DNA of 64,000 nt, taken from contig CAIMVD010000172.1 in NCBI GenBank assembly GCA_903844815.1, forward strand, positions 1 through 64,000, written 5' to 3'. This DNA comes from an uncultured Bacteroidota bacterium. GTDB lineage: Bacteria > Bacteroidota > Bacteroidia > Bacteroidales > VadinHA17. Position numbers and translations under genes: made by a program. Shown here in pieces: positions 51,742-61,210 of this stretch; the first letter of the stretch is position 1; each line of letters starts with the position of its first letter. Below the pieces are notes generated by a model. It did no database searches and was not told the DNA's origin. It saw only the letters and a list, made by a program, of their open reading frames with translations.

Positions 51742-53316
51742 ATGACTAAAAAAATAACACAAAAAGATATTAACGATGCCGTCTGGAAGGCATGTGATAC
51801 GTTTCGCGGGAGCATAGACCCCAGTGTTTATAAGGATTATGTGCTTACCATGCTATTTGTAAAATATCTGAGTGATGTTCATGATGATAAATATGAAGCG
51901 TATTTGAAGAAATACAGCGACGACAAAGAACGCGCCGACCGGGCAATGAAGCACGAACGCTTTGTGGTACCCGAACACAGTCATTTTAACTATTTGTTCG
52001 ACCATCGTAACGAACTTAATATAGGTGAGTTAATAGATATTGCATTGGAAGATCTGGTAGAAGCTAACCGTGACAAACTTTACAGCGAAGATGGCGCAGG
52101 GATATTCCAGAACATTAATTTCAACAGCAGTGTATTGGGCGATACAAGGGATAAGAATACAAGGTTGAAAAACCTTCTGCTCGATTTTAAGAAAGATACT
52201 TTAAATCTCAAGCCATCGCATCTGGAAGGCACTGATATTATTGGAGGCGCCTACATGTTCCTGATTGAAAACTTTGCAAGCGATGCCGGGAAAAAAGCAG
52301 GAGAATTCTTTACTCCGAAAGAAGTATCAACCCTTATTGCAAAACTTACCAGATCCTTACCCGGATCACGTATCTGCGACCCTACCTGTGGTTCAGCCTC
52401 TTTGCTGATTAAAGCCGGAGAAGAAGTTGGTTCAGATAATTTTTCACTCTATGGACAGGAAGCTAATGGTAGCACATGGGCGCTGGCAGTTATGAATATG
52501 TTTTTACATGGTTTTGATAATGCCACTATCCGATGGGGAGATACAATCCGAAACCCGAAACTAAAAGAAGGTGATGCTCTGATGAAGTTTGATACTGTAG
52601 TTGCTAATCCTCCTTTCTCCTTAGACAAGTGGGGAAAGAGTGACGATAAAGAGGAAAACAAATCCAGTGACAGCTTTGACCCGGAAACCGACAAGTATAA
52701 TCGCTTTTGGAGAGGCACACCATCTAAAAGCAAAGGAAACTGGGCATTTATCAGCCACATGATTGAAACAGCATACGAGGGCAAAGGTAAAGTTGGAGTA
52801 GTTGTACCACATGGAGTTTTATTCCGGGGTGCAAGCGAAGGGAAGATCAGGCAGAAGACGATCGAGGAAAATCTCCTTGAAGCAGTCATTGGATTACCTG
52901 CAAACCTGTTTTTTGGAACCGGTATCCCGGCAGCGATCCTGATTTTCAACAGGGCACGAAAAGGTAAAGGGCAGGAACCTGTTCTGTTTATCGATGCCAG
53001 TAAACATTATGAGTCGGCAAAGAACCAAAACAGACTACGACCATCCGATATTGACCACATTGTGGATACTTACCGGAGATTTAATGAAGGGAAACTGGCT
53101 ACCGGAATTATCGAGGATAAATTCAGCTTTGTTGCAACTTTCAATGAAATAAAGGAAAACGAATTCAACCTCAACATCCCCCGCTATGTGGATACTTTTG
53201 AAGAAGAAGAGGAAGTTGATATTGCAGGTGTCCAGACAGAGATTGAAAGGCTGGAGGTAGAATTGAAAACTGTGCAAGTGGAACTGAATGAGTATTTAAA
53301 AGAACTGCAGCAATGA
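51742..53316 (+). CDS. hsdM: Type I restriction-modification methyltransferase (M) subunit
   Basis: 524 residues. An N-terminal HsdM helical domain (DAVWKACDTFRG, TMLFVKYLSD), then GKKAGEFFTPKEVS, the SAM-binding CDPTCGSASLLI motif and the catalytic NPPF motif for N6-adenine methylation (VVANPPFSLDKW). The C-terminus is a coiled coil that would bind S and R. Its stop overlaps the RhuM gene start by 4 bp. Confidence 0.96.
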   Translation: MTKKITQKDINDAVWKACDTFRGSIDPSVYKDYVLTMLFVKYLSDVHDDKYEAYLKKYSDDKERADRAMKHERFVVPEHSHFNYLFDHRNELNIGELIDIALEDLVEANRDKLYSEDGAGIFQNINFNSSVLGDTRDKNTRLKNLLLDFKKDTLNLKPSHLEGTDIIGGAYMFLIENFASDAGKKAGEFFTPKEVSTLIAKLTRSLPGSRICDPTCGSASLLIKAGEEVGSDNFSLYGQEANGSTWALAVMNMFLHGFDNATIRWGDTIRNPKLKEGDALMKFDTVVANPPFSLDKWGKSDDKEENKSSDSFDPETDKYNRFWRGTPSKSKGNWAFISHMIETAYEGKGKVGVVVPHGVLFRGASEGKIRQKTIEENLLEAVIGLPANLFFGTGIPAAILIFNRARKGKGQEPVLFIDASKHYESAKNQNRLRPSDIDHIVDTYRRFNEGKLATGIIEDKFSFVATFNEIKENEFNLNIPRYVDTFEEEEEVDIAGVQTEIERLEVELKTVQVELNEYLKELQQ

Positions 53317-54314
53317 AAAATCAAAAAGCTGAAATACTGATTTATCAATCCAAGGACGGAACAACAAAGATTGATGTAAAACTGGAAAATGAAACTATAT
53401 GGCTCAGTCAATATCAGATGGCTGAGTTGTTTCAAACAGACAGGACTTCGATAGCTAAACACATAAAAAACATCATTGAAACAGGCGAATTGACAGAAGA
53501 AGCAACTTGTGCAAAAATTGCACAAGTTCAAAAAGAAGGTAATCGCAAAGTAACAAGGGAAATACTTTATTACAATCTCGATATGATTATTTCAGTAGGT
53601 TATCGTGTGAAATCACATGTAGCTACACATTTCAGGATATGGGCAACACAACGATTGAAGGAGTATATCATAAAAGGATTTGTGATGGATGATGAACGGT
53701 TAAAAGAAGCAAGAAACTATTATTTTGATGAACTTCTTGCCCGTATCCGTGACATTCGCAGCAGCGAAAAGGTCTTTTACCGTAAAGTATGCGAAATATA
53801 TGCTACCAGTATTGACTATGAACCAACCACAGAAATGACTCAACAATTTTTTGCCACTGTCCAGAATAAATTTCACTGGGCAATTCATGCACACACTGCC
53901 GCTGACCTGATTATACTTAGGGCAAACGCCGCAAGTCCATTAATGGGTTTAACCAATTTCCCGGGCAGTGAAATAAAAAAGCAGGATGTGGTTATTGCGA
54001 AAAATTATTTAAATGAAGATGAATTGAACCAACTAAACCGCATTGTAAACCAATACCTGGAATTTGCCGAACTTCAGGCTCTGCAACGCAAACCCATGTA
54101 CATGAAAGATTGGGTAGCCAAACTGGATGCGTTTCTCACTTTAAACGACCGTGATATTTTAAATCACACCGGAAAAACCTCACACGAAGCGGCAGAAACA
54201 TTTGCTTTTGGTGAATATGAAAAATACAAAGCAGCAGAAATAACAAGACTGGAACAATCCGAAGACCATTTAGATAAAGCGATTAAACAGTTAGATGCAA
54301 AAAAGAAAAAATGA
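53313..54314 (+). CDS. RhuM-family protein in the RM operon
   Basis: 333 residues. The N-terminal pattern ILIYQSKDGTTKIDVKLE, TIWLSQYQMAELFQTDRTSIAKHI and SVGYRVKSHVATHFRIWAT is the virulence RhuM family, often embedded in type I RM operons. It resembles a winged-helix/KilA-type DNA-binding start with a downstream helical region and a C-terminal basic coiled coil (RLEQSEDHLDKAIKQLDAKKKK region). ATGA overlap with hsdM shows one translational unit. Function in restriction is not established. Confidence 0.9.
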   Translation: MKNQKAEILIYQSKDGTTKIDVKLENETIWLSQYQMAELFQTDRTSIAKHIKNIIETGELTEEATCAKIAQVQKEGNRKVTREILYYNLDMIISVGYRVKSHVATHFRIWATQRLKEYIIKGFVMDDERLKEARNYYFDELLARIRDIRSSEKVFYRKVCEIYATSIDYEPTTEMTQQFFATVQNKFHWAIHAHTAADLIILRANAASPLMGLTNFPGSEIKKQDVVIAKNYLNEDELNQLNRIVNQYLEFAELQALQRKPMYMKDWVAKLDAFLTLNDRDILNHTGKTSHEAAETFAFGEYEKYKAAEITRLEQSEDHLDKAIKQLDAKKKK

Positions 54315-54347
54315 AATTACAATATGCCTCCGACTTTTAAAACATGA

Positions 54348-55511
54348 ATGATGAACACTAACAAAACAACATATAAAGACTCGCCACTCGGCAAAATTCC
54401 TGGTGATTGGGAGGTGAAACGCTTAGGAGAAATATGCACAACATTTAAGAGTGGATATGGAATTACGTCAGAAGAAATAAATGCAATTGGGGAGTATGCA
54501 GTATATGGCGGAAATGGCTTAAGAGGGTACACTAATAAATTTACTCATGAAGGAAATTACTTCCTTATCGGTAGACAGGGTGCATTGTGTGGAAATATAG
54601 TAAGTGTTATAGGAAGAAACTATATTTCAGAGCATGCAATTGCTGTCCAGACAAATGATAAAAATTATAATTCATTCCTTGCCTACAAACTTGATTTTCT
54701 GAATTTAAATAGACTATCTGAATCTTCAGCCCAGCCTGGGTTGTCTGTGGAAAAACTGATTAGGATTAAAATAACGCTTCCCCCCCTCCCCGAACAAAAA
54801 GCCATTGCCCATGTCCTTGGTCTGATTGACTCGGCCATCAACACAAACAACCAGCTAGTCGCGAAAAAAGAATTGCAAAAAAAATGGCTGATGCAGGTTT
54901 TATTGACTCGGGAAAAAAGGTTGAAAGGGTTCGGTTCTGAGTGGGAAGAACATAAAATTTCTCAATTAGGTCAAATTGTTACTGGAAATACACCTAGTAT
55001 GTCAAAACCTGAATATTATGGAGACAAATATTGTTGGGCAACGGCATTTGATTTTAAGGGTGTTTATATTGATGAAACAGACATTAAACTATCAGAGGAA
55101 GGGAAAAATGTTGCACGTATTGTTCCCAGAGGTTCAATACTCGTTACATGTATTGCTTCAATTGGGAAAAATGCCATAGCAAATGTTGAAATGGCATTCA
55201 ATCAGCAAATAAATGCAATTGTTCCAAATGAAAATTTCTATTCTGAATTCATTTATTATATGATTGAAAATTCATTACATAAGTTAAAAGAAGTTGCAGG
55301 TGCTGGGGCTGTAACAATAATAAATAAATCCAATTTTGAAACCATAAAATTGAAATTTCCATTGATTGAAGAGCAAACCGCAATTGCCCGGGTGTTACAA
55401 ACAGCCGACAAAGAAATCCTACTACTCAAAACCAAAACAGAAAGACTCAGGGAGCAGAAAAAGGGGTTGATGCAGGTGTTGCTGACGGGGAAGAAGAGAT
55501 TGGCGATATAG
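54348..55511 (+). CDS. hsdS: Type I restriction specificity (S) subunit, two recognition domains
   Basis: 387 residues. The first unit begins YKDSPLGKIPGDWEVKRLGE and ends at the conserved helix LPEQKAIAHVLGLID; the second begins GFGSEWEEHKISQLGQ and ends at the helix EEQTAIARVLQTAD, RLREQKKGLMQVLLTGKKRL. Each holds one variable target domain that reads half of a bipartite site. Its stop (55509-55511) touches the start of the RAYT remnant, so the transposase sequence abuts the gene directly. With the half S gene at 51170 the operon encodes two specificity proteins. Confidence 0.93.
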   Translation: MMNTNKTTYKDSPLGKIPGDWEVKRLGEICTTFKSGYGITSEEINAIGEYAVYGGNGLRGYTNKFTHEGNYFLIGRQGALCGNIVSVIGRNYISEHAIAVQTNDKNYNSFLAYKLDFLNLNRLSESSAQPGLSVEKLIRIKITLPPLPEQKAIAHVLGLIDSAINTNNQLVAKKELQKKWLMQVLLTREKRLKGFGSEWEEHKISQLGQIVTGNTPSMSKPEYYGDKYCWATAFDFKGVYIDETDIKLSEEGKNVARIVPRGSILVTCIASIGKNAIANVEMAFNQQINAIVPNENFYSEFIYYMIENSLHKLKEVAGAGAVTIINKSNFETIKLKFPLIEEQTAIARVLQTADKEILLLKTKTERLREQKKGLMQVLLTGKKRLAI

Positions 55512-55515
55512 AATA

Positions 55516-55806
55516 GATGTTGTTTTAAATGAACATATTATTATGCCAAATCATTTTCATGGTATAATCGAATTAAACCAGGTTGATCCCATATCCAACC
55601 TGGTTGCGACGATTGTAGGGACACGACATGTCGTGTCCCTAAATGATAATGCCGGTATATCCGTAGGGACACGACATGTCGTGTCCCTACCCGATAATTC
55701 GGAATCGTCCGTAGGGCCATCACATGTGATGGCCCCAACCGATAATCCCGAAACACGCGTACGGCCATCACATGTGATGGCCCAACAATGGATCTTATGC
55801 AGGTAA
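55516..55806 (+). pseudogene. Truncated RAYT transposase copy with four in-frame palindromes
   Basis: The sequence from 55516 closely matches the middle of the intact RAYT gene (56069 onward, GTTGTTTTA ... TTATTATGCC) and reads in frame as IIMPNHFHGIIELNQ, the HUH region. It has lost the N-terminal half and the catalytic C-terminus. Four palindromes of 20-28 bp with a 48-bp period lie within it (55616-55641, 55663-55690, 55714-55735, 55763-55782) and are read as GTRHVVSL or GPSHVMA repeats. The frame ends at TAA 55804-55806. It starts 4 bp after hsdS, so it is a duplication-derived remnant. Confidence 0.85.
55616..55782. repeat. REP-like palindrome array in the RAYT remnant
   Basis: Four palindromes spaced about 48 bp apart. 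The first two contain GACACGACATGTCGTGTC, the last two contain GCCATCACATGTGATGGC. All centre on an ACATGT core, flanked by CGATAAT-type spacers. Confidence 0.88.
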
Positions 55807-55825
55807 TATTATAAACAAGAATAAT

Positions 55826-56491
55826 ATGAATAATTACAATCCAAATTTACACCACCGTAAATCAATCCGCCTGAAAGGATATGATTATTCTCAGGAAGGA
55901 TTGTATTTCATTACCGTATGCATTCATAATCGAAAATGTCTGTTTGGGGAAATTTTTGGCGCTGACATGGTATGGGTTAAAAATTTTCAACCCCCACAGG
56001 AAATGATATTGAATGACGTAGGGAAAATTGCAAACGACTGCTGGTTGGAAATCCCAAAACATTTCCCTAATGTTGTTTTACATGAATATATTATTATGCC
56101 AAATCATGTACATGGGATAATCGAATTAAATCGGGTTGAATCTGTAGGGACACGACATGTCGTGTCCCTACCCGATAATTCGGAAACATCCGTAGGGCCA
56201 TCACATGTGATGTCCCTACCCGATGATACCGATAATATAATACGACCATCACATGTGATGGCCCGACAAAACCAATTTTCAAAACCAATTCCGGGTTCCA
56301 TTTCTGTCATAATTCAACAATACAAATCATCTGTTACACGATTTGTCAAAAAAAACAATATTTCGCATTTCAAATGGCAATCACGATTTTATGAACATAT
56401 TATTCGAAATGAACAATCCCGTCAACAGATTACTGATTACATAATCAATAACCCAAAGAATTGGCAAGATGATGATTTTTTCAACTACTGA
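55826..56491 (+). CDS. REP-associated tyrosine transposase (RAYT) with in-frame palindromes
   Basis: 221 residues. The N-terminus (RLKGYDYSQEGLYFITVCIHNR), the HUH motif IIMPNHVHGII and a C-terminal FYEHIIRNEQSRQQITDYI, with the probable catalytic Tyr, are typical of the Y1/RAYT family. Between the HUH motif and the catalytic region about 48 residues are encoded by three palindromes of 16-28 bp (56144-56171, 56192-56219, 56246-56261), read as VGTRHVVSL, VGPSHVMSL and IRPSHVMA. RAYTs nick and mobilise REP palindromes. The gene interrupts the type I RM operon between hsdS and the SEC-C gene. Whether the expanded protein stays active is unknown. Confidence 0.9.
   Translation: MNNYNPNLHHRKSIRLKGYDYSQEGLYFITVCIHNRKCLFGEIFGADMVWVKNFQPPQEMILNDVGKIANDCWLEIPKHFPNVVLHEYIIMPNHVHGIIELNRVESVGTRHVVSLPDNSETSVGPSHVMSLPDDTDNIIRPSHVMARQNQFSKPIPGSISVIIQQYKSSVTRFVKKNNISHFKWQSRFYEHIIRNEQSRQQITDYIINNPKNWQDDDFFNY
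56144..56261. repeat. Palindrome array inside the RAYT coding sequence
   Basis: Three palindromes with a 48-51-bp period inside the frame: a perfect 28-mer with the core GACACGACATGTCGTGTC (56144-56171), a 28-mer with one mismatch (56192-56219) and a 16-mer CCATCACATGTGATGG (56246-56261). The same classes recur in the remnant copy about 530 bp upstream. Confidence 0.88.
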
Positions 56492-56537
56492 TAACCATAA
56501 TAAAAAAACGTAAAATCACCTTCAAATAGTTCAAATC

Positions 56538-57962
56538 ATGGTGCAAACAATTAACTGGTACGAGAAAGATTCAGACGAAATTTATGATCATTTCAACAGT
56601 CTGAGGTGGGAAGATGCATATCTCTTCCTCAGCGATATGTTGAAAAATAACCCGGATGCTCCTATTTTCTGGATAGATTTATTAGCTGATCTTGAGGAAT
56701 ATATGCTCGGAAACGGGATGGCCAAGGAGGTGATTGAATTTATTGACCTCTACAGAATCACTTTCCCGGGTGCATATGAAAACGAATACCAGTACATAGA
56801 ACTGGAACTGATCCCACATTTGTTTTATCTTGAGGATATTGATACTTTAAAAAAGAGAATTGAGATTTTAAAATGTAATCCGGTGGAAGGAATCGACACC
56901 GTTTCAAAGGAGCTGCTGTTTAAACTGATTTATCATGGTTTTTCTGACCTCGCCGTAGAATATTCACAGGTAGTGTGGAAACCCCTGTCTGAAGCAGAGG
57001 ACCTTATTGGTCATCCGGAGAATGACTTTTGCATTTCAATCTATCTCAATGAGCTCGAAAACCGCTATCATAGCATTCAAAAAGGAGAAACTATAAACGC
57101 GGAGCTTCTCAGAAAGGAGATGGAGGTATATGGCTTTGATGATGATATTGAGGTTTTTCAGGATGTCATTTCCAGATTATCTGAAGATATCAATATGTCT
57201 AAGACAATGCACGCTGATTTCAGGAATATAAAGGATTATCTCTTGTTCCTTAATATTCAATTTGTTAAATATATGAAGGATGAATATAATTTGCCTTTCA
57301 TACTCTCAGACAGATTCTTCAATCTTCTTCAGAAACCTGAATTATTCGGTAGGGTTGATACAGAAAAGGGATTCCTCTATATTCCTTATCCGGTGCTATC
57401 AGAACATTATGATCGCCAGTATGATAATATATTCCATATGAATCTGGTTGAAATTTTCGGAAAAGTTTTCGGATTAAAATATGTATACCATTTTTTCCAT
57501 GTTCACAATTTTATTGATGATAACTTCTACAAAAAAATGAGTGAAAACATCCATTTTCTGGAATACGAGTTCATGGTTAACAGCAGGGAATCGCTGTGGC
57601 AAATGATGTTTGTTTTTGATTGGCCTCGGCTTTTTGCTAAGGATATTTACCGGATGCAAATATTTTCAGATACTTACAGGTATAACATTGATGAAAAGGT
57701 TGCAGAAAACCTCAAAAATTACCTGAAAATATTCATTGTTCCGGAAAGGATTCAATCCGAAATAGATATTCATAATAATTTGAAAAAAGAATCGGGTTTA
57801 GATTATGTTCCTGAAAATGATGTTGAATCTGATTATGGGTTTCCAGATCCCGAACTACCAATAGTGAATCCCGGTCCTAAAATTGGCAGAAATGATCCCT
57901 GTCCATGCGGTAGTGGTAAAAAATATAAGAAATGTTGTCTTGATAAGCCAGTTAATCAATAA
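56538..57962 (+). CDS. Helical protein with C-terminal SEC-C zinc motif
   Basis: 474 residues. The last ~25 residues ([20 protein letters not shown]) are a SEC-C metal-binding motif as in SecA. The long N-terminal part is alpha-helical, TPR-like, and rich in Asp, Glu, Tyr and Phe; I recognise no enzyme motif. It begins 46 bp after the RAYT gene and ends 8 bp before hsdR, so it is probably read with the restriction subunit. SEC-C proteins are recurrent in defence loci, but the role here is unknown. Confidence 0.8.
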
Positions 57963-57970
57963 AAAATAGT

Positions 57971-60900
57971 ATGGAAACTCCCAGTTTCAAAGAAGACCAT
58001 ATAAGCCAGATCCCCGCCCTGCAAATGCTTCAAAAGCTGGGTTATAAATATTTGAGTCCGACAGAAACGGAGAAACTACGTGGAGGTAAAACCAGTAACG
58101 TTCTGCTTGATGATATTCTGCGGAAACAGCTGAAAGAGATCAACTCAGATAAAAGAATCAGCTCAACAAAGACAACTTACATAAGCGATGCCAACATCGA
58201 AAACGGAATTAGGGCACTTAAGGAATTGCCAATGAACGAAGGTTATATCGCTGCCTGCGAAACTGTTTACGACCTTATTACACTGGGAAAAGCCTTTGAA
58301 CAGAATTTCGACGGAGACAAAAAAAGCATCACACTTCAATACATTGACTGGAACCCTGATACCTTTTTAACCAATAACGTTTTTCATGTAACCGAAGAAT
58401 ACAGCGTAATGCGCAGTGCCAGCAAAGAGCATTATCGTCCCGATCTGGTATTGTTCGTGAATGGCATTCCTGTTTGTGTAATTGAGTGCAAACGGCCTGA
58501 TATAAAAGAGCCACTGTCGCAGGCAATCAGCCAGCATCTTCGCAGCCAACAGGAGGATGGAATTCGTGCTCTTTATGTTTATACTCAGGTTATTATGAGT
58601 GTTGCTACTCAGGAAGCCTCTTATGCAACCAACGCTACACCTGATAAATTCTGGTCGAAATGGGAAGAAAAATTTACAATTGCCGCAGAGGAGGAAAAAT
58701 ACATAAGCGAATTACAGGAAATTAAGAACAGGCCGTTAAGTACAGATCAGAAAGAGAAGCTGTTCAGTGAACGGTTCAAATATGTACGGCAATATTTTGA
58801 TAATCTGGAAACAGAAAATGTTCTTCCGACTATTCAGGATAAATATCTGTTCGGGTTATGCCGGCCCGAAAGGTTGATGGATATTATTTTCAACTTCATC
58901 CTGTTCGATGATGGCGAGAAAAAAATTGCCCGTTACCAGCAGTTTTTTGCAATAAAAAAATCAATGAAACGTGTACTTCTGTTTAAGGATGGAAGAAGAC
59001 AAGGCGGAGTTATCTGGCACACTCAGGGCAGTGGAAAATCACTTACAATGGTATTACTTGCCCAGGCAATAGCAATGGAAAAATCAATACGAAATCCTAA
59101 AATAGTACTTGTTACCGACAGAACTGATCTTGACGATCAGATTACAGGCACATTCAGGAAGTGCGGGAAGTTCGTTGAGAATGCGACAACCGGACAAAGA
59201 TTGGTTGAACTGTTGGAAAGTAAAAGTGATGCAGTCGTTACCACAATCATAAATAAGTTTGTGGCTGCAATGAAAAAAATAACCATGCCACTACAGAGCC
59301 ACGATATTTTCGTTCTTGTGGATGAAGGTCACCGGACCCAGCATGGAACGTTTAACATCGAGATGCAAAAGACTTTACCCAATGCCTGCTTCATTGCAAT
59401 GACCGGAACCCCGCTTTTTAAAAGAGATAAAAGTACTGCTGCAAAATTCGGGGGTATTATTGACGCTTACACAGTCGATCAGGCTGTTAAGGACAAGGCT
59501 GTGGTGCCATTATTATACGAAGGAAGGTTGCCAAGGCAAATTGTGAATGCAAGTCCGCTGGATACTTTCTTTGAGATGGTTTCAGAACCCTTAACTGATT
59601 ATCAAAAAGCAGATTTCAAGAAGAAATTCAGTCGGGCAGACCAGCTTAACGGGGCTGAACAAAAAATATATGCAACAGCATGGAACATAAGTCTACATTT
59701 CAGGGATAACTGGCAGGGTACTCCTTTCAAGGCACAACTTGTTTGCGACAAGAAAATAAATGCAATACGCTATAAGGAATTTCTGGATGAAATTGGAATT
59801 GTATCCACCGAGGTTCTGATATCTCCACTAGATGAAAGGGAGGGAGAAGATAGCGCCTACGAAAAATCTACAGAAAGAGAAAATCGCTTCTGGAAAAAGA
59901 TGATGGACGAACATGGTAATCCAAAAAAGTACGAAAAAAATATAATAAGCCGCTTCAAAAAACAGGATCATCCTGAAATAATCATTGTTGTAGATAAGTT
60001 GCTTACCGGTTTTGATGTGCCAAGGAATACTATTCTTTACCTGACGCGAAATCTGACAGGACATAAACTTCTACAGGCAATTGCCAGGGTGAACAGGATA
60101 TATTCCGATAAAGAATTCGGATATATTATAGACTATTATGGTGTTATTGAAAATCTTGACGATGCTTTGCAAATATATTCTTCATTTGAGGATTTTGACG
60201 ATGATGATCTGAAAGGAACACTCACAATAATCGCTGATGAGATTAGGAAATTACCTCAGAAACATTCAGAGTTGTGGGATCTTTTCAAAACCGTAAAAAA
60301 CAAACGTGATGCAGAAGCATACCAGTTATTGCTGAAGGATGAGGCTGTCAGGGTTCTGTTTTATGAAAAGCTGGCTGCATTCGCAAAGAGTCTGAAACTT
60401 GCTCTGTCATCTGTTCAGTTTTATAAAGTGGTTGATGTAAAAACGGTCGCCCGGTATAAGGAAGATCTTACAATGTTTCTTAAACTTCGTAAGGCAGTTG
60501 TTGAAAGGTATTCTGATGAAATTGACTACAAACAATTCGAAGGGCAGATCCAGAAACTTATTGATGCACATATCACAACTGACAAGGTTGAAGTGATTAC
60601 TGAATTGGTAAATATTTTCGAAAAGGATAAATTTCAGGAAGAGGTAGAAAGAACAACAGGTAAAGCTGCAAAAGCAGATAAGATTGCGAGCAGAACTGCA
60701 AAACACATCTCAGAGAAAATGGAGGAAGACCCGGCTTTTTATAAAAAGTTTTCACAGATGTTGCAGGAAACAATTTCCGAATATGAAGCCAATCGCATCA
60801 ATGAAACAATTTACTTAAACAGGGTAAAGGAAATCATGAACAATGTTTTGGATCACACCGATAGTGATATTCCTGAAGCCTTAAAAGATAAAGATGTAGC

Positions 60901-61210
60901 AAAAGCATTTTATGGTCTCTGTGTAGAGTCTCTGAGTGATAAAATTCAGGATGAAATTGTACGGAGAGAAATTTCGGCCAGGGCTGCCCTGAATATTGAT
61001 GAGCTTATTCAAAAAGCTGTTATGGATAATAAAAAACCTATAATTGACTGGCAGTATAAAACAAATATTACCGGAAAACTGCAAATCGAAATAGGCGACT
61101 ATTTAATTGATGAGGTGAGAGACAAATATCATCTCAGCCTTACATTTGGAGACATGGATGAAATTGCAAACAGGTGCATTGAAGTTGCTAAAATCAGATA
61201 CAGGCAATGA
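57971..61210 (+). CDS. hsdR: Type I restriction endonuclease (R) subunit
   Basis: 1079 residues. The N-terminal nuclease domain has the PD-ExK-type motif (Asp158, Glu172, Lys174 in DLVLFVNGIPVCVIECK). A superfamily 2 motor follows: Walker A TQGSGKS (351-357), VTDRTDLDDQ, DEGH (451-454), AMTGTP, and LLTGFDVPRN with QAIARVNR (motif VI). The C-terminal ~250 residues are helical for assembly with HsdM/HsdS. All elements appear complete, so the enzyme is probably functional. Its stop overlaps the next gene by 4 bp. Confidence 0.97.
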   Translation: METPSFKEDHISQIPALQMLQKLGYKYLSPTETEKLRGGKTSNVLLDDILRKQLKEINSDKRISSTKTTYISDANIENGIRALKELPMNEGYIAACETVYDLITLGKAFEQNFDGDKKSITLQYIDWNPDTFLTNNVFHVTEEYSVMRSASKEHYRPDLVLFVNGIPVCVIECKRPDIKEPLSQAISQHLRSQQEDGIRALYVYTQVIMSVATQEASYATNATPDKFWSKWEEKFTIAAEEEKYISELQEIKNRPLSTDQKEKLFSERFKYVRQYFDNLETENVLPTIQDKYLFGLCRPERLMDIIFNFILFDDGEKKIARYQQFFAIKKSMKRVLLFKDGRRQGGVIWHTQGSGKSLTMVLLAQAIAMEKSIRNPKIVLVTDRTDLDDQITGTFRKCGKFVENATTGQRLVELLESKSDAVVTTIINKFVAAMKKITMPLQSHDIFVLVDEGHRTQHGTFNIEMQKTLPNACFIAMTGTPLFKRDKSTAAKFGGIIDAYTVDQAVKDKAVVPLLYEGRLPRQIVNASPLDTFFEMVSEPLTDYQKADFKKKFSRADQLNGAEQKIYATAWNISLHFRDNWQGTPFKAQLVCDKKINAIRYKEFLDEIGIVSTEVLISPLDEREGEDSAYEKSTERENRFWKKMMDEHGNPKKYEKNIISRFKKQDHPEIIIVVDKLLTGFDVPRNTILYLTRNLTGHKLLQAIARVNRIYSDKEFGYIIDYYGVIENLDDALQIYSSFEDFDDDDLKGTLTIIADEIRKLPQKHSELWDLFKTVKNKRDAEAYQLLLKDEAVRVLFYEKLAAFAKSLKLALSSVQFYKVVDVKTVARYKEDLTMFLKLRKAVVERYSDEIDYKQFEGQIQKLIDAHITTDKVEVITELVNIFEKDKFQEEVERTTGKAAKADKIASRTAKHISEKMEEDPAFYKKFSQMLQETISEYEANRINETIYLNRVKEIMNNVLDHTDSDIPEALKDKDVAKAFYGLCVESLSDKIQDEIVRREISARAALNIDELIQKAVMDNKKPIIDWQYKTNITGKLQIEIGDYLIDEVRDKYHLSLTFGDMDEIANRCIEVAKIRYRQ

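Follow-up and report, generated by a model that had tools for sequence, protein, structure and literature searches.

The window, by which we mean the whole stretch of 64,000 nt that was analysed, contains an intact RAYT (TnpA_REP) gene encoding 221 aa at 55826..56491 on the forward strand, identified by its open reading frame, by NCBIfam family NF047646 and by profile and Foldseek matches to 4ER8, the structure of E. coli TnpA_REP. Directly upstream lies hsdS, the specificity subunit gene of a type I restriction-modification system (54348..55511, forward strand, Pfam Methylase_S), and downstream follow a gene for a SEC-C protein (56538-57962, Pfam) and then hsdR, encoding the type I restriction subunit (57971..61210, forward strand, Pfam). 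With a RhuM-like gene at the front, the order over 53313-61210 is RhuM-like gene, hsdS, RAYT, SEC-C protein, hsdR. Three palindromes are embedded in the RAYT reading frame, and a truncated twin of the gene with four more stands just ahead of it.

The RAYT protein and its palindromic linker

The key residues of a RAYT are all present in the protein: H94 and H96 of the HUH motif MPNHVHG (aa 91-97; 56096..56116, forward strand), both invariant in a 46-sequence alignment, the guide-contact residues W184, Q185, E190, H191 and R194, and the catalytic tyrosine Y205 (codon 56438..56440, forward strand), which is invariant in the same 46 rows and aligns to Y115 of 4ER8, which we take to be the catalytic tyrosine there. 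In the sequence-profile search, 4ER8 was the sole solved structure matched at E up to 0.01 (E 1.2e-7), its residues W94, Q95, E100, H101, R104 and Y115 being aligned with W184, Q185, E190, H191, R194 and Y205 of the window protein, and Foldseek with the predicted model also ranked 4ER8 first (E 7.8e-6). Family scores are lower than this correspondence would suggest. The equivalog NF047646 (REP_Tyr_transpos) gave 56.6 bits (E 2.5e-15, best stretch aa 158-210), under its curated cut-off of 80 bits, Pfam Y1_Tnp scored 17.8, under its cut-off of 23, and a Pfam scan of the protein at E 0.001 returned no family; both shortfalls probably arise because an insert splits the domain. Only 16 residues follow Y205, so that there is no conserved C-terminal extension past the core, and a plasmid search found four records, each under 60% identity.

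The insert is the palindrome array. The AlphaFold2 model has a mean pLDDT of 79.6, with residues 108-118 and 121-150 under 50, and the array is thus, by prediction, an unstructured linker (aa 108-150; 56147..56275, forward strand) between the HUH strand (94-101) and helix alphaC (159-176); the concern that it might break the folded domain is eased by this model. The segment that follows, comprising alphaC (aa 159-176), the beta4 region and the W box (56294..56410, forward strand), is the one whose sequence best predicts the palindrome.

Within the linker, palindrome 1 (56144..56171, centre 56157.5) is a perfect 28-mer, GTAGGGACACGACATGTCGTGTCCCTAC, with the double foot GTAG...CTAC, and encodes VGTRHVVSLP; palindrome 2 (56192..56219, centre 56205.5) is a 28-mer with one mismatched pair and encodes VGPSHVMSLP; palindrome 3 (56244..56263, centre 56253.5) is a 20-mer encoding RPSHVMA, with one mismatched pair outside a perfect 16-nt core. 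All three are in frame at aa 107-146, between the HUH motif and the W184/Y205 region, and leave the frame open. A unit of the array combines a palindrome of 28 bp, footed GTAG...CTAC, with a spacer of 20 bp, and two palindrome classes occur, GACACGACATGTCGTGTC (class 1) and CATCACATGTGATG (class 2). The original prediction of an intact 221-residue RAYT with three in-frame palindromes between HUH and the tyrosine is therefore upheld by the ORF and repeat analyses, but the period of 48-51 bp that it gave has to be replaced, since the centres are exactly 48 bp (16 codons) apart throughout the gene and its twin, which is also the period reported by TRF.

The twin (55516..55787, forward strand) comprises the HUH strand and the linker array only, and is 90% identical to the neighbouring RAYT over its first 70 nt and 87% over 130 nt. 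Its open frame, 55543-55806, agrees with the predicted frame-keeping truncated copy, and lacks the first ~80 codons and everything past the linker. It has two class 1 palindromes, at 55615..55642 (centre 55628.5) and, perfect, at 55663..55690 (centre 55676.5), and two of class 2, at 55711..55738 (centre 55724.5) and 55759..55786 (centre 55772.5), and its RAYT homology stops just past the last of these. A fresh tandem duplication is rejected as its origin despite that 90% identity, because part of the twin's linker has a counterpart in the orthologous gene of genome G031 and none in the neighbouring RAYT. Instead, the twin may be what is left of a RAYT sequence caught between palindromes; it resembles the rayt 3' ends captured between REPs that are described in the available part of PMC2817692.

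The palindromes are confined to this locus. The genome, a draft of 6.37 Mb in 411 contigs, was searched for both classes as had been proposed, and it holds three copies of class 1 and four of class 2, all seven in the gene and its twin and none elsewhere, so that dispersed extragenic copies of the two classes are absent from it. Within 1000 nt upstream of the RAYT gene, the GT[AG]G-footed palindromes are those of the twin (55615-55786), and downstream, to 57600, there is no palindrome of this kind. In line with the suggestion of a probable target inside the transposase gene itself, they are REP-like, with a GTAG foot, and in frame. A looser pattern found one more perfect GTAG...CTAC palindrome of different sequence in the same genome (G000:C70:7958-7985, L005), between two long same-strand reading frames on a contig without RAYT match.

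Among 60 genomes, class 1 is present, at up to three mismatches, in five including this one, and all places are at RAYT loci except two in G015, on contigs without RAYT match. Double-foot GTAG palindromes in general number 25 to 37 per genome in G045, G031, G018, G026 and G005, and 0 to 19 in the remaining genomes searched for them, apart from G034 (21); some genomes may harbour dispersing double-foot palindrome families.

These properties are those of a known group. As described in the available text of Quentin et al. 2018 (PMC6006769), TnpA_REP subclass 2.4, which is there equated with RAYT group 4 of Bertels et al. 2017, has a HuH-Y1 core, GTAG-foot REPs nearby, double-foot GTAG...CTAC REPs, and REPs in frame inside the gene between HuH and Y; it is abundant in Bacteroidetes and Cyanobacteria, and its variable region was modelled as peripheral. 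The window RAYT fits this subclass by its HuH and tyrosine motifs, guide residues, nearby REPs, double feet, in-frame REPs and missing C-terminal extension. A novel system is accordingly rejected: the in-gene target had been presented as a departure from normal RAYTs, of which the in-frame location stands and the novelty falls, being a published trait of the subclass in that text. What sets the window apart from the description there is the confinement of the palindromes to the RAYT locus (seven copies), the 48-bp in-frame array, the truncated twin and the type I restriction operon. E. coli TnpA_REP (4ER8), our top structural match, shares the guide-contact residues, the tyrosine and the GTAG foot. 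In that system and in the REPtrons of groups 2 and 3, unlike in the window, REPs are extragenic, present in many copies and footed by GTAG at a single end, and the parts of PMC8266576 and PMC2817692 available to us mention no in-gene array. Intragenic REPs have also been reported (PMC3733652), and the accessible part of that work describes intragenic GTAG/CGTC repeats and Rickettsia palindromic elements that are likewise short in-frame palindromes, which loops or linkers are proposed to tolerate; those elements lie in varied genes and mostly at different sites, whereas the palindromes of the window sit at a recurrent site in the gene of the enzyme that presumably processes them.

Recurrence, reading phase and turnover of the linker palindromes

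A RAYT homologue was found in 40 of the 60 genomes, this one included. We assembled 150 RAYT loci (L013-L162), 70 from this genome and its relatives and 80 from many phyla, the latter being the best 80 of at least 575 confirmed relatives, and a strict motif rule retained 100 open genes, 37 from the first set and 63 from the second. With a linker palindrome defined by arms of 10 or more and at most one mismatch, 65 of the 100 carry one, the window gene among them (27/37 and 38/63), where synonymous-codon shuffles (20 rounds) expect 1.6 of the 37 and 1.1 of the 63, about three in total; under this rule the other 35 have none. Related RAYTs had been proposed as a check on the palindromes, and many do carry such palindromes in the same linker. 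Entry to the sample required an open frame from the HUH to the W motif. Of the 50 loci that did not enter, a looser motif rule finds 23 open, 15 of which have a palindrome between the motifs; in two the motifs lie in separate frames or come with a stop (a palindrome is present in one), and the motif pair is missing from 25. That the array is a product of chance or of low-complexity assembly has a practically negligible probability: apart from the draft state of the assembly, in 411 contigs, nothing in its favour was found, and it is refuted by recurrence, with 27 and 38 genes against one to two in each set of codon shuffles, the same linker palindrome in the G031 orthologue (L014) and symmetrical variants in L017 and L203.

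A loose rule places a GTAG-like foot in 68 linker palindromes (eight more were unassignable), and it falls in phase 0 in 53, in phase 1 in 15 and in phase 2 in none. A literal GT[AG]G is seen in 42 of the phase 0 cases and in 12 of those in phase 1. Phase 0 reads VGxxHxxSLP, phase 1 starts mostly with xRG or xRD, and phase 2 would read TAG. Hence, two of the three phases are used because the third puts TAG in frame, and since the encoded peptide differs in both sequence and phase, it is the stop that is excluded and not a peptide that is conserved; a conserved functional peptide is rejected on this ground. All 11 internal spacings are multiples of 3, as are 12 of the 22 external ones, an open frame having been the entry condition.

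The internal palindromes tend to match those around their own gene. In the 31 genes with both internal palindromes and palindromes in flanks within 800 bp, arm identity to the own flanks averages 0.78 vs 0.49 to other loci, and reaches 0.9 or more in 20 of the 31 vs 4% of cross pairs (maximum of 10,000 permutations, 0.61). In the other 11 genes, the flanking hairpins match the internal palindrome below 0.9 and are mostly unrelated hairpins.

Several linkers depart from a simple array. In L022, L028, L107 and L109, left arms seem to be repeated ahead of one complete copy (VETLHAVETLHAVETLHATSLQ, VGTQNVGTQNVASL and similar), which suggests from the pattern of repeats that arrays may have grown by arm-wise slippage. 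The linkers of L085, L086 and L088 hold long tandem peptide repeats, of NELHSPENA type in L085 and similar in the other two, with little perfect palindrome left, and these are perhaps decayed arrays. In L071 (G008) the usual linker is without palindromes, and two in-frame palindromes 48 bp apart lie at a different site, at aa about 60-80, ahead of the HUH motif.

Palindromes are also gained and lost between close orthologues. As had been proposed, palindrome number was compared, and the linker has two in G031 (L014), three in the window and none in G022 (L015), whose ORF is open; since the G022 linker keeps spacer-like codons, the palindromes were probably lost there. Compared by eye with G031, class 2 of the window shows a two-sided A-T to C-G change, which has reached one side in palindrome 2 and both sides in palindrome 3 and in the twin, so that pairing was restored although the peptide changed.

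These data bear on the idea that hairpins of the array, in mRNA or DNA, are bound by RAYT to control expression, or that array length tunes the enzyme. The original prediction had inferred that array growth could alter or regulate the enzyme, which found no direct support. The array region does fold at -64.3 kcal/mol vs -35.9 in shuffles (z -7.0), and palindromes occur in 65 of 100 parsed genes, but any perfect palindrome folds well, so the folding follows from the palindromes and is not independent evidence. Moreover, the number, class and phase of the palindromes vary, the array is mid-gene, away from the start codon, and the open gene of L015 has no linker palindrome at all, on which ground hairpin autoregulation is rejected as the main function; we regard any such control as improbable.

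The alphaC-beta4 segment goes with the palindrome sequence

Coevolution of RAYTs and REPs has been reported (Nunvar et al. 2010, PMC2817692, in the part available), and genes that carry both allow one to ask which part of the protein tracks the palindrome. Over 64 genes, the C-terminal half (C-half) predicts palindrome similarity with the N-terminal half (N-half) held constant (partial r 0.31, 0/2000 permutations, kinship ignored), and the reverse relation is weaker (partial r 0.11, p 0.01, kinship again ignored). When the protein is split into five segments in a joint model (62 genes), alphaC-beta4 has the largest effect (beta 0.35), followed by the W box (beta 0.17) and N2, from alphaB to the HUH strand (beta 0.16), each with 0/2000 permutations and kinship ignored; neither N1 nor the Tyr helix contributes to this model, and N1 correlates only when taken alone. 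It is therefore the alphaC-beta4 segment, rather than the helix of the catalytic tyrosine, that goes with the palindrome sequence.

The centre of the palindrome behaves in the same manner. A CATG centre occurs with 0 of 20 type-I C-halves vs 21 of 42 of type II (Fisher 3.4e-5), and requires eight changes on the C-half tree (shuffles mean 17.7, min 13) vs 15 on the N-half tree (mean 17.6, min 14). C-half type itself changes twice on the C-half tree and 15 times on the N-half tree (shuffles mean 26.4, min 21), and thus the halves are linked, though loosely; the poor resolution of the N-half tree (58 of 93 inner branches open) inflates this last count. Multi-state parsimony of the palindrome centres separates the two trees weakly, with 31 vs 26 changes. 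For E. coli TnpA_REP, a contact between K82, on helix alpha3, and the bulged base of the REP stem has been described, with the suggestion that stems may be bound by this helix and the region downstream of it (PMC8266576, as far as its text was available).

Taken together, we consider it likely that this RAYT, like others of TnpA_REP subclass 2.4, has double-foot REPs cognate to itself within the frame of a tolerant linker, and that these are substrate copies which match the recognition segment and matter little to the protein. The predicted disorder between the HUH strand and alphaC would let the linker tolerate inserts, each repeat of the 48-bp unit adding 16 codons. The enzyme would most likely nick and rejoin single-stranded hairpins of its own gene and flanks, the GTAG foot being read by the region around W184 and the stem by alphaC and the residues after it. 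Given such action in cis, the palindromes would be substrate copies that travel with the recognition segment and stay matched to it. The comparison with relatives suggests, at least, that a palindrome and the part of the enzyme expected to recognise it are passed on or exchanged jointly.

A possible mosaic origin of the window RAYT and two orthologues

The window gene and its orthologues L014 (G031) and L015 (G022), hereafter the trio, differ between halves in their closest relatives. Identity in N-half and C-half is 79% and 48% between window and L020, 84% and 45% between L014 and L020, and 75% and 80% between window and L014. Nucleotide similarity to L020 and to L043 ends in both cases at 56127, 17 nt ahead of the array, and returns at about 56387 (69% and 72%, respectively). 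A second in-frame site in the N-half, between LFGEI and MILND (55974..55993), holds a decayed palindrome, GGGTTAAAAATTTTCAACCC, of the linker class of L020 and L043: by blastn, 55970-55998 is 89.7% identical to the linker palindrome of L020 over 29 nt, and 55970-56004 is 82.9% identical to that of L043 over 35 nt. Moreover, similar N-halves go with the same position in a restriction operon, the order being hsdS-RAYT-hsdR in G031 (L014) and G022 (L015), and hsdS-RAYT-SEC-C in G001 (L020).

Trees of 26 rows give the same picture. On the N-half the trio falls within an 11-row clade (98/96), and on the C-half the other eight rows form a clade without the trio (100/100). In AU tests on these rows, the grouping of the trio with L020, L043 and L084 was rejected on the C-half (0.0074) and unrejected on the N-half (0.073), that of the trio with L017, L093, L094 and L099 was rejected on the N-half (0.0425) and unrejected on the C-half (0.22), and the eight-row C-half clade was rejected on the N-half (0.0116); as the 26 rows were picked after the 97-row trees had been seen, these p-values differ from those for groups named beforehand. 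On the 97-row trees themselves the AU tests were not significant (0.25, 0.096). The 11-row N-half clade was unrejected on the C-half (p 0.48), because both splits fit one unrooted tree, and the half alignments are short, with 86 (N) and 68 (C) columns.

We then have two readings to weigh. In the first, the palindromes and the adjacent alphaC-beta4 were swapped between RAYT genes as a unit at the linker, the trio being a mosaic of an N-half lineage of GTTGAAAATTTTCAAC type and of a C-half with CATG palindromes from another lineage; we put this reading close to an even chance, if slightly short of it. The contrast of identities between halves, in window and L014 alike, the end of similarity to L020 and L043 just before the array, the differing clades with their three AU rejections, the decayed palindrome still present in the N-half and the shared operon place of L020 all argue for it. 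Against it stand the 97-row AU tests and the later choice of the 26 rows, the survival of the 11-row clade on the C-half and the brevity of the halves. Since similarity to L020 and L043 is back at about 56387 and the Tyr helix takes no clear side between the two lineages, an exchanged stretch would also have to stop near the W box.

The second reading does without recombination: in the trio, rapid divergence of the recognition segment was accompanied by change of the palindrome. RAYT genes are reported to evolve fast (PMC2817692, available part), and the unrejected 11-row clade would be expected in that case, but alphaC-beta4 of the window gene, which we take for the trio, is 50-62% identical to L017, L093, L094 and L099, while its identity to the eight RAYTs that join the trio in the N-half clade is 15-40%, a contrast that resembles common descent with a second lineage more than simple divergence. 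Fast divergence by itself therefore appears rather unlikely.

A wider set of 393 genomes of the order was then compared with the exchange of palindromes and alphaC-beta4 in mind. The N-half was matched at 1e-33 in 10 genomes, this genome and G022 included, and of the eight other loci (L165-L172, of which L167, L170 and L171 are the earlier-sampled L018, L025 and L027), six have a RAYT-associated palindrome, L167 and L172 have none, and not one of the eight has a CATG centre, as the exchange would have it. The C-half was matched at 1e-14 in 57 genomes, and among the matches listed there are 30 loci, 28 besides those of this genome and G022. By our reading, a CATG-centred palindrome is found in 12 of these 28, in the linker or, at L176, L184 and L194, where the N-half was not found, beside the C-half; two more (L186, L201) have one only in the flanks, and the rest have other centres or none. 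The nearest C-halves outside the trio, among the matches listed, are those of G075 (64%, 59%) and G319 (62%). Both G075 genes, at loci new to the sample, carry GGGACACGCCATGGCGTGTCCC in the frame from HUH to Y, which is the window class with one symmetrical change and again favours the exchange, one of the two genes having an upstream stop; the G319 locus is a fragment near a contig start and is without CATG palindrome. G125 speaks against the exchange, for with identities of 66% (N) and 51% (C) it carries a ATAATTAT palindrome, not the class expected from its C-half.

A mosaic make-up of the window gene and its two orthologues, with N-halves that go with RAYTs of other palindromes and C-halves that go with RAYTs of the same class, is thus moderately supported by sequence comparison. 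Among the papers listed by literature searches on recombination or chimeric RAYTs and on intragenic TnpA_REP, there was none on mosaic RAYTs. The exchange of palindromes with alphaC-beta4 adds to our preferred explanation of cognate REPs in a tolerant linker and does not exclude it. Combining the two, we propose tentatively, and with somewhat more doubt than for the exchange itself, that a RAYT of this subclass may be a self-contained specificity cassette, in which the palindrome and the alphaC-beta4 segment that would recognise it are neighbours in one reading frame and would move together between genes by recombination in the linker, and that the window gene may be such a recombinant, with a fossil palindrome of its former specificity in the N-half. 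In the papers listed by the searches and the available part of PMC6006769, we found no earlier description of the phase rule, the tie of alphaC-beta4 to the palindrome or the mosaic origin.

RAYT-REP recognition, and how enzyme and target change jointly, are still being worked out, and genes that hold enzyme and target in one frame provide many natural matched pairs. These pairs point to alphaC-beta4 as the segment that reads the stem, and to a swap of the cassette as one route to new specificity. If that is true, a RAYT could change its target and gain the new target in one step.
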